From contig NZ_CP100000.1 of NCBI RefSeq assembly GCF_024138165.1, positions 992,001 to 1,056,000 on the forward strand: 64,000 nt of DNA, written 5' to 3'. Of this stretch, positions 1,059-55,852 are shown piece after piece. Position 1 is the stretch's first letter. Every line of letters begins with the position of its first letter. The DNA comes from Halorussus vallis (GTDB taxonomy: Archaea > Halobacteriota > Halobacteria > Halobacteriales > Haladaptataceae). The position numbers and the translations under genes were made by a program. Under the pieces are notes generated by a model. The model did not search any database, was not told where the DNA came from, and saw only the letters and a program-made list of their open reading frames with translations.

Positions 1059-1316
1059 ATGACGGGCGACGGTCCGACCGGACGGGATACGCTCCGCGAC
1101 GCGTTCCGGGTCTGGGACGTGAACCGAGCGAATCAGGAGGCCGTCCTGGTGAGTTCGGACGACCAGCACTACGCGGTTCCGCTTCCGGACGAGCACGCCG
1201 ACCTTCTCGAAGCGTTGGCGGAGTCCGGCGGGACGCTCGACGCGACGCTCGTCCCGTCCGACGGGCCGACGTCGTGGGCGGTCGACGCCGTCGACGGCGT
1301 CGACCGCACCGGATAG
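1059..1316 (+). CDS. hypothetical haloarchaeal protein, 85 aa
   Basis: A small acidic soluble protein with no membrane segment, signal peptide or cysteine. A central segment (FRVWDVNRANQEAVLVSSDD) suggests a small beta-rich fold, but I recognise no family. It has third-position G+C like its neighbours and a TATA element about 22 nt upstream, so it looks genuine. It stands alone: the next gene on the same strand starts 209 nt downstream with its own AT-rich upstream region. The function is unknown. Confidence 0.65.
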   Translation: MTGDGPTGRDTLRDAFRVWDVNRANQEAVLVSSDDQHYAVPLPDEHADLLEALAESGGTLDATLVPSDGPTSWAVDAVDGVDRTG

Positions 1317-5943: not shown

Positions 5944-6080
5944 CCACCTTTTTTCTTCGTCGGGTAGCCGTGAGCGCCTGCGGCGCTCCGGCTACCGCTC
6001 CTCGAAAAAATCTGGACCAAAAAAGGCACGCGCTGAGGCCGAGTCGCCGCGGCGACTCGGCCTCAGCGCATCTTCCACTC
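5944..6080 (+). repeat. modular hairpin repeat, copy A (A/B subtype)
   Basis: A 137-bp intergenic element. It starts with CCACCTTTTTT, then a hairpin at 5963-5996 (GGTAGCCG...CGGCTACC, with GCGCC/GGCGC around a TGC loop), then CTCCTCGAAAAAATCTGGACC, AAAAAAGG and CACG. A perfect 38-nt palindrome follows at 6031-6068 (stem CGCTGAGGCCGAGTCGCCG), ending in the block CATCTTCCACT. Copy B has the same blocks, order and total length, with unrelated stem sequences. It begins 4 nt after the acyl-CoA dehydrogenase stop, in the same orientation, so it is probably part of that mRNA's 3' end or marks its termination. Confidence 0.85.
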
Positions 6081-9209: not shown

Positions 9210-9878
9210 GTGCAGACGTTCCTCACCCTCGCCCACGAGTACGAAACCGACCTCCCGGCGCCGTACGACGGCGGCGTCCGGACGCCGCCGTCGTACGTCG
9301 AACACTTTCTGCGAGAGTACTCAGAGGCGGGCGACACGGTGCTCGACCCCTTCGCCGGGTTCGGGACGACGCTGGTCGTCGCCGAGCGACTGGACCGGGA
9401 GGCCTGGGGCGTCGAGTTCGAACCGGACCGCGTCGACTACGTCCGCGGGCGGGTCGACAACCCCGAGCGCGTCGTCCACGGCGACGCACTCGACCTGTCG
9501 AGCGCCGACGTGCCGGCGTTCGACTGTTGTCTCACCTCGCCGCCGTTCATGGTCGCGGGGATGACCGAGAACCCCTTCGAGAACTACGCGGGCGAGAGCG
9601 ACTACGCGACCTATCTCGACGACCTCGAAACCGTCTTCGGGCGACTCGCCGCGCTCGCGGCCGACGACGCCCGCCTGCTCGTCGACGTCTCGAACATGAA
9701 ACACGAGGGCGGCGTGACGACGCTCGCCTGGGACGTCGCCGACGCCGCCAGGTCGCACTTCCGCTTCGAGGGTGAGGTCGTCGTCGGCTGGGAGGGCGAC
9801 GGACGGGCCGAAACCGAGGGTTCCTACGGCTACGGCTACGACCACAGCTACTGTCTGGTGTTCGGCGCCGAGTCGTAG
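9210..9878 (+). CDS. solitary DNA-methylase-like methyltransferase, 222 aa
   Basis: An amino-methyltransferase of the N4-cytosine/N6-adenine type. The SAM-binding motif DPFAGFGTT is at residues 46-54, and the catalytic motif TSPPF at residues 109-113. The N-terminal segment (RTPPSYVEHFLREYSEAGD) resembles motif X. Only about 55 residues separate the two motifs and about 110 follow, so there is little room for a target-recognition domain. No restriction endonuclease lies nearby, so it is an orphan. The GTG start at 9210 is the only good start before motif X. The substrate could be DNA or structured RNA; sequence alone does not decide. Confidence 0.75.
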   Translation: MQTFLTLAHEYETDLPAPYDGGVRTPPSYVEHFLREYSEAGDTVLDPFAGFGTTLVVAERLDREAWGVEFEPDRVDYVRGRVDNPERVVHGDALDLSSADVPAFDCCLTSPPFMVAGMTENPFENYAGESDYATYLDDLETVFGRLAALAADDARLLVDVSNMKHEGGVTTLAWDVADAARSHFRFEGEVVVGWEGDGRAETEGSYGYGYDHSYCLVFGAES

Positions 9879-17075: not shown

Positions 17076-17251
17076 CGAGAGCGAACGCAGTGAGCGAGCG
17101 GGCCAAGGAACCACCTTCCGTCACGGGAGCGGCGGCTTTGCCGCCGCTCCCGTGACGGAAGGTGGTGACGCAGTGCTTTTGGTCCAGATTTTGTCAGCGA
17201 AACAACTCGGCCGCCGACGGCGGCCGAGTTGCTGAGCGCAGCAAAAGGTGG
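17076..17251 (-). repeat. modular hairpin repeat, copy D (C/D/E subtype)
   Basis: On the minus strand it begins CCACCTTTTGCTGCG 3 nt after the rps17e stop codon, in the gene's orientation. Hairpin one (17203-17231) has a 13-bp stem, CAACTCGGCCGCC/GGCGGCCGAGTTG, with a three-base loop. It is followed by GACAAAATCTGGACC and AAAAGCACTGCGTCACC. Hairpin two (17111-17165) is exceptional: a perfect 26-bp stem (CCACCTTCCGTCACGGGAGC onward) around TTT. The block CGAGAGCGAACGCAGTGAGC, GAGCGGGCCAAGGAACC, shared with copy E, closes the element. The GGTGAGTACCAG block of C and E is missing. Confidence 0.85.
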
Positions 17252-18147: not shown

Positions 18148-19016
18148 ACCGACACCTCCCCGCGTTCGAGCGCGACGAACAGCGCCGCCGCCGCGATGTC
18201 GGCGGTCGTCCCGGGATTGACGCCGTCGGCCACGAGCGAGTCGGCGAACGCCGCCAGCAGTTCGGCGTCGCCTTCGAGCGCCTCCTGGGCCCGGACCCGG
18301 ACGCTCTCTGCGACCTTCTTGCCGTGCTGTTTCGCGACGAGAGTGTCGGGTTTCCGCGAGAGGAGTTCGAGGTAGACCCGGGCGCCGCGGGCCGACAGCG
18401 GACCGTCGAGGTCGGCGAGGCGGTCGACCGCCCAGAAGGTGCGCTCGAACCCGTTCGTCCACTCGGCCGCCACGTCGTCCTCGTCGGCGCCGAGCGCGAG
18501 CACGTCCGAGAGGGTGACGCCCCGCTCCTTGACCGCCGGAATCGCGTCGCTACCCCGGCGAACGTCGAGCGCCTCGGCGTCTTCCGGTGGGTCGTCGACG
18601 AACACGTTCACGCGGTCGAACGCCCGGTAGAAGTTCGCGGCGTCCTCGACGGTGGTGTCCTCGACCACCGCGGTCGCTGCTTTCGGAGTGAGTTTCTCGT
18701 CGCCGCTCGTGCGCGCCGCGGCGCGCACGAGCGGCACGAGCAGGAGGAGCGCGCCGAACTGGGTGTTGCCGCCCTCCTGACGGCTCATCCCGGCGACCGC
18801 GCGCTCGAAGGCCTCGCCGACCGACGCGCCCTCGGCGGCCGCCCGCAGGCCAGCGCCCGACCCGACCGAGCCAGCGAGGAAGTGCTCGAACCGGAGGTCG
18901 GGGAAGTCCCGCTCGCGGTCGACGTTGCCGGGTTTCGGCGTCCCGGCGACTTCGAGCAGGAGCGCTAGCTGGGCGTTCTCTGCGGGGCCGAAGTCGGCGT
19001 CTGCGGGCGGGTTCAC
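18144..19016 (-). CDS. triphosphoribosyl-dephospho-CoA synthase (CitG) family protein
   Basis: A 290-residue member of the CitG/MdcB family, which transfers a phosphoribosyl unit from ATP to dephospho-CoA in bacteria. Family blocks visible are LLLEVAGTPKPGNVDRERDF near residue 15, SRQEGGNTQFGALLLLVPLV near 75-95, and the C-terminal ADGVNPGTTADIAAAALFVA. No citrate or malonate lyase genes lie nearby, so the substrate is probably different in this archaeon. The GTG start overlaps the stop of the Dus-like gene by 4 nt (GTGA). A perfect 32-nt palindrome (18703-18734) lies inside the coding sequence at residues ~94-104 (PLVRAAART). Confidence 0.85.
   Translation of the reverse strand: MNPPADADFGPAENAQLALLLEVAGTPKPGNVDRERDFPDLRFEHFLAGSVGSGAGLRAAAEGASVGEAFERAVAGMSRQEGGNTQFGALLLLVPLVRAAARTSGDEKLTPKAATAVVEDTTVEDAANFYRAFDRVNVFVDDPPEDAEALDVRRGSDAIPAVKERGVTLSDVLALGADEDDVAAEWTNGFERTFWAVDRLADLDGPLSARGARVYLELLSRKPDTLVAKQHGKKVAESVRVRAQEALEGDAELLAAFADSLVADGVNPGTTADIAAAALFVALERGEVSV
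18703..18734. repeat. perfect 32-nt palindrome inside the CitG-like gene
   Basis: CCGCTCGTGCGCGCCG followed directly by its reverse complement. It stays in frame and encodes a short Ala/Arg-rich stretch. It resembles in size and composition the palindromes at 6031-6068 and 26398-26435. Confidence 0.75.
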
Positions 19017-20830: not shown

Positions 20831-22081
20831 TTACGTCGACCGGTTTCGCCACGTCTCGGTGTGGAGGACGACGTACGCGCTCTCGGGGTCGACGCGGTAG
20901 ACGTACGCGACGTTCCTGTCGAGGTTGACGGTCACCTCCATCCGCACCAGCGTCCCGTTGGCGGGGACGTACCGGTAGACGTCGAGGCCGGGTTCGTCGC
21001 CGTTCGGCACGGCCGACTCGTCGTACGACAGCGCCAGCGACCGGACCCGGAGTTCGTCGCCCGGCGGCCGAACCCCGACGACCGCCGACGCCCGGGCCTC
21101 GCGGAACCGCTCGGCGTTGGCGGCCGAAACGCCGGCGGTCCGGCGTTCGATTCGGAGGGCGTCGACGGCCGACTTCGGACCGGAGACGATCACGTCGACG
21201 CCAAGCGACTCGTTGCCCACCGTCTCGACCACGTGACGGGTCGGGTCGGCGGTCGTCGTCGGCCGCGATGCGAGCGCGTCCTTCGCCTCGCCGAGCCACG
21301 AGGGCGCTTGCACGTCGGTCGAACCGACGTCCTCGTAGGCGAATCGCACGGCGAACGTTCGGTTCACCCCGTCGACGTCGGCCTCGACGCGGTAGGTGAA
21401 CTTCCGCACCAGCCCCGAACCGTCGACGTAGGCGCATGCGTCGAGCGCGGTGACGTCCTCGGGGTCGAACCGGGTGACGTTCGCGTCGGGGTGTCGGACC
21501 TGGCTCAGGGAGGTGGCGGCGTAGACGCGAACCCGTTCGCCGTCGAGCGTCGTCGCGCCGTCGGCTTCGAACTCGAACGCGTCGACCACCGTCTCGGCCG
21601 ACCGGTTCCGGTAGGCCTCGACGGCGTAGTCGTCGCCGGGTCGGTGGTACTTCACGGTGTCCCGCCCCGAGAGTTCGGTCCGGCCGTAGCGGTCGCCGGA
21701 CGGCGACACGTACCTCGTCTCCGTTATCGTGCCGGCCGTCGTTTCGCGGAGGAACAGTTCGCCGTCGGCGTCCACGCGCGCCGTCCGGTTCAACGACAGC
21801 GTCTCCGTGGTGCCGTCGACCGACGAGGACAGCGACGCCGACCACCGACGGGTGAAGCTCTCGGCCGCCGCGAGCGCGTCGGCGTGGTCGGCGGCCAGTC
21901 GCCGGCCCGACGCCGAACCGTTCGCTCGGACCGCGGTCGTCGCCGTCGACGACGGCGACGACCCGGCGGTTTCGACCGTCGGCGTCGCGGTCGTCGTGTC
22001 CGTCCGGCCCGTCCCGCCGGTGCACCCCGCGAGGACGAGGCAGACGACGAGCATCGGTACAAATCTGCGTCTCGGACTCAT
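20831..22081 (-). CDS. secreted lipoprotein, haloarchaeal family of unknown function
   Basis: A 416-residue lipoprotein. The signal peptide (RRRFVPMLVVCLVLAGC) ends in the lipobox LAGC, so the mature protein begins with a lipid-modified Cys21. It is followed by a Thr/Ser-rich linker (TDTTTATPTVETAG) that spans the cell-envelope space. The body is beta-rich with repeated acidic strands, as in the haloarchaeal DUF7537-type lipoproteins, and no catalytic motif is seen. It lies between cofD and the divergent HD gene and seems monocistronic. Ligand and role are unknown. Confidence 0.8.
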   Translation of the reverse strand: MSPRRRFVPMLVVCLVLAGCTGGTGRTDTTTATPTVETAGSSPSSTATTAVRANGSASGRRLAADHADALAAAESFTRRWSASLSSSVDGTTETLSLNRTARVDADGELFLRETTAGTITETRYVSPSGDRYGRTELSGRDTVKYHRPGDDYAVEAYRNRSAETVVDAFEFEADGATTLDGERVRVYAATSLSQVRHPDANVTRFDPEDVTALDACAYVDGSGLVRKFTYRVEADVDGVNRTFAVRFAYEDVGSTDVQAPSWLGEAKDALASRPTTTADPTRHVVETVGNESLGVDVIVSGPKSAVDALRIERRTAGVSAANAERFREARASAVVGVRPPGDELRVRSLALSYDESAVPNGDEPGLDVYRYVPANGTLVRMEVTVNLDRNVAYVYRVDPESAYVVLHTETWRNRST

Positions 22082-26114: not shown

Positions 26115-27152
26115 TCAGGCCGGGCGAAGGTGCTCGCAGTCGCCCGCGAGGACCCAAACCTCTTCTCCGTCGTCCGTCTCGACCACGAGCGCGCCCGGCG
26201 AAACCACGTCGACGGCCTCGCCGACGACCGCACCGTCGGCGGTTTCGACCCGCACGCGCTGGCCGAGCGTCGCCGACCGCTCTCGCCAGGCGTCCAGAAT
26301 CGAATCGGGGTCGCCCCGGAGTTCGTCGAACCGCTCCAGCAGTCGCTGGACGAAGATTCGGCGGTCCACATCGTCTTCATGCTCTCCGTCGCTCTCGCTC
26401 CGAGCGGAGCGCCGCGCGCGGCGCTCCGCTCGGAGACTGGTCGCGCCATCGGGGAGTGCCTCGGCGTCCAGGTTGGCGTTGACGCCGATTCCGACGACGA
26501 CCCACGAGACGCTGTCGGCCTCGCCCTCCATCTCGGTCAGGACGCCCGCGAGTTTTCGGCCGCCGCGCTCGCCGGTGTCACCCACTAGAACACCGTCGGA
26601 CCGAAGGTCCGACGAGCCCTCGTTCGGTCCACTCACGAGAACGTCGTTCGGCCACTTGATTTCGGCGGGGACGCCCGCCTCCCGGGCGGCGTCGGCGACC
26701 GCGACGGCGGCCGCTAAGGTCAACAGTGGCACGCGGGCGGGCGGCAGGGCCGGCCGGAGGACGAGACTGCACCAGACGCCGCCGCGCGGCGACGACCACT
26801 CGCGGTCGAGTCGACCCCGGCCGCCGGTCTGCTCGTCGGCCAGCACGGCGACGTCGCCCGCGCTCGCGACCGCGAGTTCGCGAGCGCGGGCGTTCGTGCT
26901 GTCGACCGAGTCGTGGTATTCGACGTCGAACGGCGCGTCCAGACCGAACTCGACCGCCGCCTCGCCGTACTCCGGGACGGCCGCCAGCGCGTAGCCGTCG
27001 GCCCCGCTCTCGACCTCGAAGCCGGCGTTGCGGAGCGCCTCGACGTGCTTCCAGACCGCGTTACGCGAGATTCCGAGCCGGTCGGCGAGCGCCGGTCCGG
27101 TGACGGGACCGTCGGCCAGGGCGGCGAGGACGGCCCGGCGAGTGTCGTTCAT
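26115..27152 (-). CDS. birA: biotin--[acetyl-CoA-carboxylase] ligase (BirA)
   Basis: A 345-residue BirA. The N-terminal winged helix (residues ~1-60, with LADRLGISRNAVWKHVEALR) implies a regulatory DNA-binding role as well. The catalytic domain has GRGRLDREWSSPRGG and the lysine motif IKWPNDVLV, and a C-terminal SH3-like domain follows. It attaches biotin to the carrier domain of PccA, encoded 0.7 kb away. I start at MNDTRRAVLAAL because the winged helix then starts at once; an ATG nine codons upstream is possible. A 38-nt perfect palindrome (26398-26435) encodes a low-complexity insert (LRAERRARRSARS) at residues ~240-252, between conserved parts of the fold. Confidence 0.93.
   Translation of the reverse strand: MNDTRRAVLAALADGPVTGPALADRLGISRNAVWKHVEALRNAGFEVESGADGYALAAVPEYGEAAVEFGLDAPFDVEYHDSVDSTNARARELAVASAGDVAVLADEQTGGRGRLDREWSSPRGGVWCSLVLRPALPPARVPLLTLAAAVAVADAAREAGVPAEIKWPNDVLVSGPNEGSSDLRSDGVLVGDTGERGGRKLAGVLTEMEGEADSVSWVVVGIGVNANLDAEALPDGATSLRAERRARRSARSESDGEHEDDVDRRIFVQRLLERFDELRGDPDSILDAWRERSATLGQRVRVETADGAVVGEAVDVVSPGALVVETDDGEEVWVLAGDCEHLRPA
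26398..26435. repeat. perfect 38-nt palindrome inside birA
   Basis: CTCCGAGCGGAGCGCCGCG followed directly by its exact reverse complement, in frame with birA. The translated Arg/Ala/Ser segment is unlike the rest of the protein and lies between conserved regions. It has the same length as the palindrome in repeat copy A (6031-6068). Confidence 0.85.
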
Positions 27153-52086: not shown

Positions 52087-52113
52087 CGCGCCGGGGCCGA
52101 CGGCCCCGGCGCG
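52087..52113 (-). promoter_or_regulatory. GC-rich hairpin in the leader of the GDPD gene
   Basis: CGCGCCGGGGCC, loop GAC, GGCCCCGGCGCG: a perfect 12-bp stem ending 15 nt before the ATG, in the ~75-nt leader implied by the TATA box at 52171-52180. It could affect translation or mRNA stability. Confidence 0.5.
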
Positions 52114-54568: not shown

Positions 54569-55762
54569 ATGAGTTACAAAATCGGTCTCGTCGGCAAGCC
54601 CTCGGTGGGGAAGTCGACGTTCTTCAACGCCGCGACGATGAACGACGTGCCGGAGGGCGCGTACCCGTTCACGACCATCGACCCGTCGGTGGGCGAAGCC
54701 TACGTCCGGGTCGAGTGCGCCGCCCCCGAGTTCGACGAGGAGTGCACGCCGAACGTCGGCTTCTGCGAGGACGGCACCCGGTTCGTCCCGACGAAACTGG
54801 TCGACGTGGCGGGCCTGGTCCCCGGCGCCCACGAAGGTCGAGGGCTGGGCAACCAGTTCCTCACCGACCTCAACGAGGCCGACGTGCTGGTCCACGTCGT
54901 CGACTTCTCGGGCAAGACCGACATCGAGGGCGAACCGGTCGAGGACCACGACCCCCGCGAGGACATCGACTTCCTGGAGGAGGAACTCGACATGTGGTAC
55001 CTCGAAATCCTCGGGAAGGGCATCTCGCGATACGAGAGCGGCTACGACGGCGAGGACGACGAGATCGAGGTCGAACTCGCCGAACAGATGAGCGCCTTCC
55101 GCATCAACAAGGACGAGATAAAGCGCGAGATACTCTCGCTCGACCTCGAACTCGACCCCGAGACGTGGGACGACGCCGACCGCGAGGCGCTGGCCCGCGA
55201 GATTCGCAAGGAAACCAAGCCGATGGTCGTCGCCGCGAACAAGATGGACACGCCCGAAGCCCAGGCCAACTTCGAGGAGATAACGAACGACCCCGACTAC
55301 GACCACCTCACCTTCGTCCCCGCGAGCGCCCACGCCGAGAAGGCCCTGAAGAAGGCCGCCGAGCAGGGCGCGGTCGAGTACCGCCCCGGCGACTTGGCGT
55401 TCGACATCGTTGGCGACGTGTCGGGCGACCAACGCGCCGGCCTCGAAGCCATCGAGTCGTTCGTCGCCGAGTACGACGGGACCGGCGTCCAGCGGGCCTT
55501 GGAAACCGCGCTGTTCGAGGAACTGGGCGTCGTGCCCGTCTTCCCCGGCGGCGCGAACGGCCTCGGCAACGAGCGCGGGGAGGTCCTGCCGGACTGCTTC
55601 CTCCTGCCGGAGGGCGCGACCGCCGAGGACTTCGCGTACCACATCCACTCGGACCTCGGCGAGGGGTTCCTCCACGGCGTCGACTGCCGGAGCAAGCGCC
55701 AGGTCGGCGCCGACACCGTGCTGGACGACCGGGCCGTCATCGACATCGTCTCGACGAACTGA
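54569..55762 (+). CDS. Obg-like GTPase/ATPase, YchF/OLA1-related archaeal type
   Basis: A 397-residue P-loop protein of the Obg/YchF superfamily. G1 is GLVGKPSVGKSTFF at residues 6-19, the G2 Thr lies in AYPFTTIDPSVGEAYV, G3 is VDVAGLVPGAHEGRGLGNQF, and G4 is VVAANKMDTPEAQ. A helical insert (about residues 130-200, acidic) and a C-terminal TGS domain (EDFAYHIHSDLGEGFLHGVD, then KRQVGADTVLDDRAVIDIVS) follow. The NKMD form suggests GTP rather than the ATP preference of YchF. The family binds ribosomes and acts in translation or stress. Start ATG and length are normal. Confidence 0.93.
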   Translation: MSYKIGLVGKPSVGKSTFFNAATMNDVPEGAYPFTTIDPSVGEAYVRVECAAPEFDEECTPNVGFCEDGTRFVPTKLVDVAGLVPGAHEGRGLGNQFLTDLNEADVLVHVVDFSGKTDIEGEPVEDHDPREDIDFLEEELDMWYLEILGKGISRYESGYDGEDDEIEVELAEQMSAFRINKDEIKREILSLDLELDPETWDDADREALAREIRKETKPMVVAANKMDTPEAQANFEEITNDPDYDHLTFVPASAHAEKALKKAAEQGAVEYRPGDLAFDIVGDVSGDQRAGLEAIESFVAEYDGTGVQRALETALFEELGVVPVFPGGANGLGNERGEVLPDCFLLPEGATAEDFAYHIHSDLGEGFLHGVDCRSKRQVGADTVLDDRAVIDIVSTN

Positions 55763-55852
55763 CCCGCGACGGACCGCCCGGGCGGTCCGTCGCGGGTCGG
55801 CCGGAGAGCCGAACCGTCGCGCTCAGCCACGTCGAACCACGCGACCACCACG

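Follow-up and report, generated by a model that had tools for sequence, protein, structure and literature searches.

The window (the whole 64-kb stretch of DNA analyzed here) carries birA, a gene for a biotin ligase whose coding sequence contains a long perfect palindrome; coordinates of these and other features are collected in Table 1. The open reading frame was identified by profile search (TIGR00121, E 5e-48, with further matches to PF03099 and PF02237), and it is uninterrupted despite the palindrome. As the earlier note on this DNA had claimed, the additional protein sequence lies between conserved parts of BirA: LPDGATSL precedes the insert and VDRR.FVQRLLERFDEL comes after it, both undamaged. 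Most of the haloarchaeal BirA proteins aligned have some 4–5 residues between TSLR and VDRR, and the window's BirA has ~15 extra (the usual form is TSLREEVGDVDRR, versus TSLRAERRARRSARSESDGEHEDDVDRR here). The note had proposed aligning relatives for presence or absence of the insert; it is absent from all of the ~95 other haloarchaeal BirA proteins in our alignment, which ranges from Halorussus to Haloferax and Haloarcula. In a few genera (L045, L055, L066, L089 and L107) this loop is expanded too, by shorter and unrelated sequence. In the AlphaFold model (pLDDT 88), the insert is predicted, with moderate confidence, to form an extended helix and a loop directly preceding a long helix. A second, smaller palindrome (26594–26614; 9-nt arms, spacer 3) occurs in another variable loop of the gene.

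The birA palindrome is exactly as first described: 38 nt, with two 19-nt arms (CTCCGAGCGGAGCGCCGCG/CGCGGCGCTCCGCTCGGAG) that abut without spacer or mismatch. The accompanying claim, that this palindrome had been inserted in frame, stands as regards frame, but the insertion is 45 nt rather than 38, and is not the palindrome alone. These 45 nt are missing from five Halorussus relatives in DNA-level alignments, which place the insertion to within ~4 nt. On the coding strand, the initial 12 nt of the palindrome (CTCCGAGCGGAG; 26424–26435) align with native sequence of the CTCCGGGACGAG type, and the remainder falls inside the insertion. New in comparison with relatives are the rest of the left arm, the right arm, and then ~20 nt past the palindrome. 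Judged from these alignments, palindrome and insertion overlap and are not identical. The unusual Arg/Ala/Ser peptide is accounted for by the inverted copy: translation continues in frame from the first half of the palindrome into its reverse complement.

Table 1. Features of the window (positions of the 64-kb stretch), and loci of a separate hairpin in other sequences
Feature	Location	Strand	Remarks
birA, biotin--[acetyl-CoA-carboxylase] ligase	26115..27152	-	N-terminal HTH; 345 aa counted from ATG
In-frame insertion, 45 nt	26379..26423	-	versus five Halorussus relatives; alignment placement +/- ~4 nt
Perfect gapless palindrome, 38 nt	26398..26435	.	19-nt arms, spacer 0, centre CGCG
Gapless perfect palindrome	1278..1307	.	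arm 15; same class as the birA palindrome
Gapless perfect palindrome	6030..6069	.	arm 20; intergenic
Gapless perfect palindrome	9262..9297	.	arm 18; within DNA methylase ORF
Palindrome	17110..17166	.	27-nt perfect arms, spacer TTT; at predicted gene start
Palindrome	17203..17231	.	arm 14, spacer 1
Gapless perfect palindrome	18702..18735	.	arm 17; both flanks conserved in relatives
Palindrome	21935..21963	.	arm 14, spacer 1; coding
Gapless perfect palindrome, 38 nt	55761..55798	.	overlaps stop codon of GTPase gene
Fixed-core hairpin	L148:10849-10882		
Fixed-core hairpin	L156:2677-2710		
Fixed-core hairpin	L261:3259-3294		
Fixed-core hairpin	L135:18306-18339		
Fixed-core hairpin	L218:14627-14662		

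The window holds six gapless palindromes with arms of at least 15 nt; when gapless palindromes were counted in 20 order-2 Markov copies of the window, none had arms above 12 nt. The spacer-bearing palindrome at the predicted gene start (17110–17166) may be a hairpin with a role in regulation or termination instead of a member of the genome-wide population described next. Beyond the window, we scored palindromes with arms of at least 14 nt and spacers of 0–5 in a sample of 624 kb from the 5.05-Mb genome, window and neighborhood included. This sample contains 77 (12.3 per 100 kb), on the chromosome and secondary contigs alike, where an order-3 Markov model predicts ~0. Scaled to the whole genome, we estimate ~620. 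The earlier note had advised a search for further palindromes within genes, and 33 of the 77 prove to be so located, with 42 outside predicted genes and 2 across an end; the intergenic share is too high, since the simple gene finder, which called 76% of the DNA coding, missed some genes.

This abundance is not general. Eight palindrome-poor Halorussus genomes yielded 4 palindromes in 700 kb, and other haloarchaeal genera 1 in 420 kb. Conditional binomial comparisons with our genome give P ~1e-20 and 2e-16, respectively, values that are descriptive because the palindrome-poor group was chosen after the counts were seen and the samples from relatives were small. In 1.09 Mb more, drawn from the birA neighborhoods of many haloarchaea, Halorussus relatives included, there were 3, and in E. 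coli K-12, our yardstick, none in 50 kb. Among the other Halorussus species, G006 has 15 in 80 kb, G011 7 in 60 kb, G002 5 in 60 kb, G015 8 in 200 kb, G017 4 in 200 kb, G016 0 in 200 kb and G004 0 in 100 kb; the counts for G011, G002 and G015 include a separate hairpin (described last), and so their share of the palindromes at issue is somewhat below these figures. Palindrome frequency differs at least tenfold among sister species of the genus. A survey of prokaryotes found palindromes to be over-represented in general, and less so in archaea (PMC4060949). GC content is not the cause: G016, the GC-richer genome (0.70), lacks palindromes throughout its 200 kb. Nor is this a clade-specific trait, for the high-density species are scattered on the BirA tree, which is poorly resolved. 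On this weak tree sister pairs may differ in density (e.g. G011 and G009), and the trait therefore seems to change quickly.

Such genome specificity, with near-constant perfection of the arms, is also what errors of sequencing or assembly could produce. We regard artefact as highly improbable: similar excesses occur in assemblies of other members of the genus (G006, G011 and G002), palindromes are spread over chromosome and secondary contigs, and, where conserved coding regions differ in length from those of aligned relatives, the difference is nearly always a multiple of three, speaking for genuine DNA under selection. Plasmid records contained no second, independent sequence of the same species.

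Arms of up to 9 nt are as frequent as chance predicts; beyond this lies a separate population of 10–27 nt, mostly 14–19, and the palindromes scored above span 28–57 nt in total. The earlier note had pointed to the equal length of a second 38-nt palindrome (55761–55798), a match that carries little weight given this range. Spacers of 0, 1, 2, 3, 4 and 5 nt occur in 32, 17, 12, 12, 2 and 2 cases, and inverted repeats with spacers above 5 are hardly enriched. General repeat-richness can be rejected as an explanation, as direct repeats show no excess. Palindromes of at least 16 pairs comprise 36 that are perfect, 8 with one interior mismatch, and none with two or three, under mismatch criteria that miss some imperfect palindromes. 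In sequence, the 77 are unrelated to each other apart from short GC-rich centres: only 42 of 1855 12-mers recur among them, and no shared core was found beyond a CGCG/CCGCGG seed. Of the gapless centres, 18 of 32 are CGCG, compared with 21% of palindromic 4-mers (P 1e-5, uncorrected for the higher GC of the palindromes, a confounder).

This lack of relatedness bears on the idea, raised in the earlier note by analogy with Rickettsia, that a mobile palindromic element inserts in frame into genes. Rickettsia palindromic elements (RPEs) are multi-copy, longer, and related in sequence. The birA case resembles them as a palindromic segment in frame within a gene, and our palindromes differ from them in being mutually unrelated. 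The analogy fails at birA in particular: a 60-nt query run against the whole genome matches only its own site and, over 22 nt, one other palindrome, and beyond that match there is no second copy. The note's further remark that no named equivalent is known in haloarchaea needs qualifying. Haloquadratum has PATEs, multi-copy and related to IS605-type transposons, and SMRs, ~80–110 bp and also multi-copy (PMC3119063), all of which, like the present palindromes, are haloarchaeal and bear palindromes or inverted repeats; the birA palindrome, however, is without a family, and is not a PATE. A sequence-homogeneous mobile element is refuted by the unrelated sequences, and although the birA insertion is in frame, known elements do occur in haloarchaea, and another hairpin is dispersed in sister species, an origin in any RPE-, PATE-, SMR- or MITE-like element now seems very doubtful indeed.

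Alternatively, the palindromes might be functional hairpins maintained by selection: terminators, mRNA structures or protein-binding sites. Their density outside predicted genes is ~4 times that inside, and the birA hairpin is computed to be highly stable as RNA (−44 kcal/mol). Some sites recur as differing hairpins in relatives; at 52087–52113 (13-nt arms, spacer 1), for example, the corresponding position in some Halorussus relatives carries a hairpin of another sequence, which suggests a conserved structure. Against this, 33 of the 77 are inside genes, the palindromes are unrelated to one another in sequence, relatives mostly lack a palindrome at the orthologous site, and several sister species are nearly devoid of them. 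As a general explanation, we judge selection for function to be quite improbable. In codon phase, coding palindromes show a bias indistinguishable from that of short palindromes arising by chance, and selection on codon phase is rejected.

We consider it probable that a short-range template switch, or ‘U-turn’, during DNA replication left the birA palindrome as its scar, and that switches of this kind occur throughout this genome at a high, species-specific rate. A nascent 3' end would arrive at a short seed that is GC-rich and self-complementary (CGCG, for example), move to the complementary strand at roughly the same position, and copy the last 10–20 nt backwards. Once synthesis had gone back to its first template, an inverted duplication with neither gap nor mismatch would be left behind. 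Within a gene, such an event would survive if the change in length were a multiple of three and fell in a tolerant loop; across the genome, events of this kind, far more frequent than in several sister species, would leave several hundred palindromes with no long sequence in common. We infer the U-turn step, the role of the seed, the move back to the first template, and a higher rate as opposed to slower loss; assignment of the birA palindrome to this process draws on the pattern across sites. Spacers of 0–3 in 73 of the 77 are what new perfect inverted repeats with short or no spacers would be expected to show. The excess of CGCG centres fits seeds, with the GC-richness of the palindromes confounding it, and codon phase would be chance-like because palindromes would grow from short chance seeds. 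The ~20 nt of the birA insertion beyond the palindrome fall outside what the palindrome accounts for, and the scarcity of imperfect palindromes requires either that the palindromes be young or that their arms be continually corrected.

Comparison with rather distant relatives hints at ancestral states—one arm native-like, or an imperfect palindrome made perfect—at several sites. At L124:9888, in an intact gene, the right arm (GGCCTCCGGGTCG) is like that of relatives (GACCTCCGAATCG), and the left arm, its inverted copy, is unlike theirs. At L129:13320, also in an intact gene, the left coding-strand arm looks native and the right one rewritten, by eye and in comparison with one relative only; the arm-by-arm identities for this site likewise use a single relative. 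Elsewhere, a native arm has been extended (C1:977431), palindromes that are imperfect in relatives are longer here (L124:4262 and C1:1075688), and the site at 9262, imperfect in relatives (a quasi-palindrome in G004), has 3 nt more in the window. Automatic arm-by-arm identities are noisy and reveal no consistent asymmetry; relatives are 70–88% identical in DNA, too divergent for the steps of any one event to be traced. Beside the palindrome at L117:12477–12510 lies a long coding insertion specific to this genome (~79 nt unaligned) and rich in GGCGACGGCGA-like repeats, hinting that repeat expansion and palindromes may co-occur.

Short inverted duplications are also expected from fold-back repair of broken ends, in which a resected 3' end folds upon itself and primes synthesis, and the resulting hairpin is opened to give a palindrome; a high rate would then reflect altered end processing, not replication. 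Foldback priming at breaks has been described in yeast that lacks Mre11 nuclease activity (PMC10622511). Such an end should leave a loop of 3–4 nt as spacer, however, and spacers of 0–1 are commonest here (49 of 77). This preference argues against simple looped fold-back, and favors a self-complementary seed at which synthesis passes to the complementary strand. Rad50-like genes, which the check on end processing covered, are moreover present, and we think fold-back repair unlikely. No causal gene emerged for the high rate: Rad50-like ATPases occur in 18 of 18 genomes and DinB in 17 of 18, the single DinB-negative genome being a 62%-complete assembly, and the Pfam zinc-hook model was uninformative for the Rad50 question. 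Loss of either as the cause is rejected, both being found in palindrome-rich and palindrome-poor species. There is a small chance that, in some Halorussus lineages, a polymerase, a helicase or an end-processing factor, either dedicated to the task or deregulated, writes gapless inverted duplications of 28–57 bp at GC-rich seeds throughout the genome, with sister species differing in whether this activity is on or off. If so, palindromes would contribute heavily to new sequence, both coding and intergenic.

Template-switch mutagenesis itself is established in bacteria and yeast (PMC7202029; PMC8604942), and one such event can produce perfect RNA stems (PMC8794818). As in quasipalindrome mutation in E. 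coli and S. cerevisiae, perfect inverted repeats with short spacers seem to arise here from, or beside, imperfect ones, coding DNA is included, changes are clustered, and each site has an unrelated sequence. Cases in S. cerevisiae involve 39 protein-coding genes, have short arms (~10–16 bp in individual examples), and are sparse (PMC8604942). The Halorussus palindromes differ from these in their gapless arms of 14–27 nt, their density (~12 per 100 kb), their in-frame insertions, and the at least tenfold spread of density between sister species. The nearest published parallel is that of Nematomorpha mitochondria, whose perfect coding palindromes were left without an assigned cause, template switching being proposed (PMC6649704). 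Both have many perfect inverted repeats in genes, few imperfect ones (with the under-detection noted above on our side), and turnover between species. Those of Nematomorpha are mitochondrial, reach 284 bp, and have both arms coding for conserved protein (PMC6649704), whereas those of Halorussus are archaeal, 28–57 bp, and often in variable loops and intergenic DNA. Most of the birA palindrome sits in the non-conserved insertion, and so its arms do not both encode conserved protein; L124:4262 is one of the few sites at which both do.

In the literature searched, we found no prior report of such a swarm of palindromes in haloarchaea. Template-switch mutation has been known so far chiefly as a rare event, in laboratory organisms, yeast and apes, and a contrast of tenfold or more between sister species provides a natural system for finding what controls it. 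The genus also illustrates that a gene can gain new protein sequence by having part of its DNA copied in inverted orientation.

A separate, dispersed hairpin was also encountered, with a fixed core (CGCGCAGT(T/C)CTGCGCG) and outer arms that vary from copy to copy yet remain complementary. Because the copies at L148 and L261 have related flanks, the hairpin may belong to a PATE-like or IS605-type element as its palindrome, or else represent a structured RNA. We counted 47 copies in G015, 19 in G003, 17 in G002, and 1 in the window's genome, and none of a reversed-pattern control.
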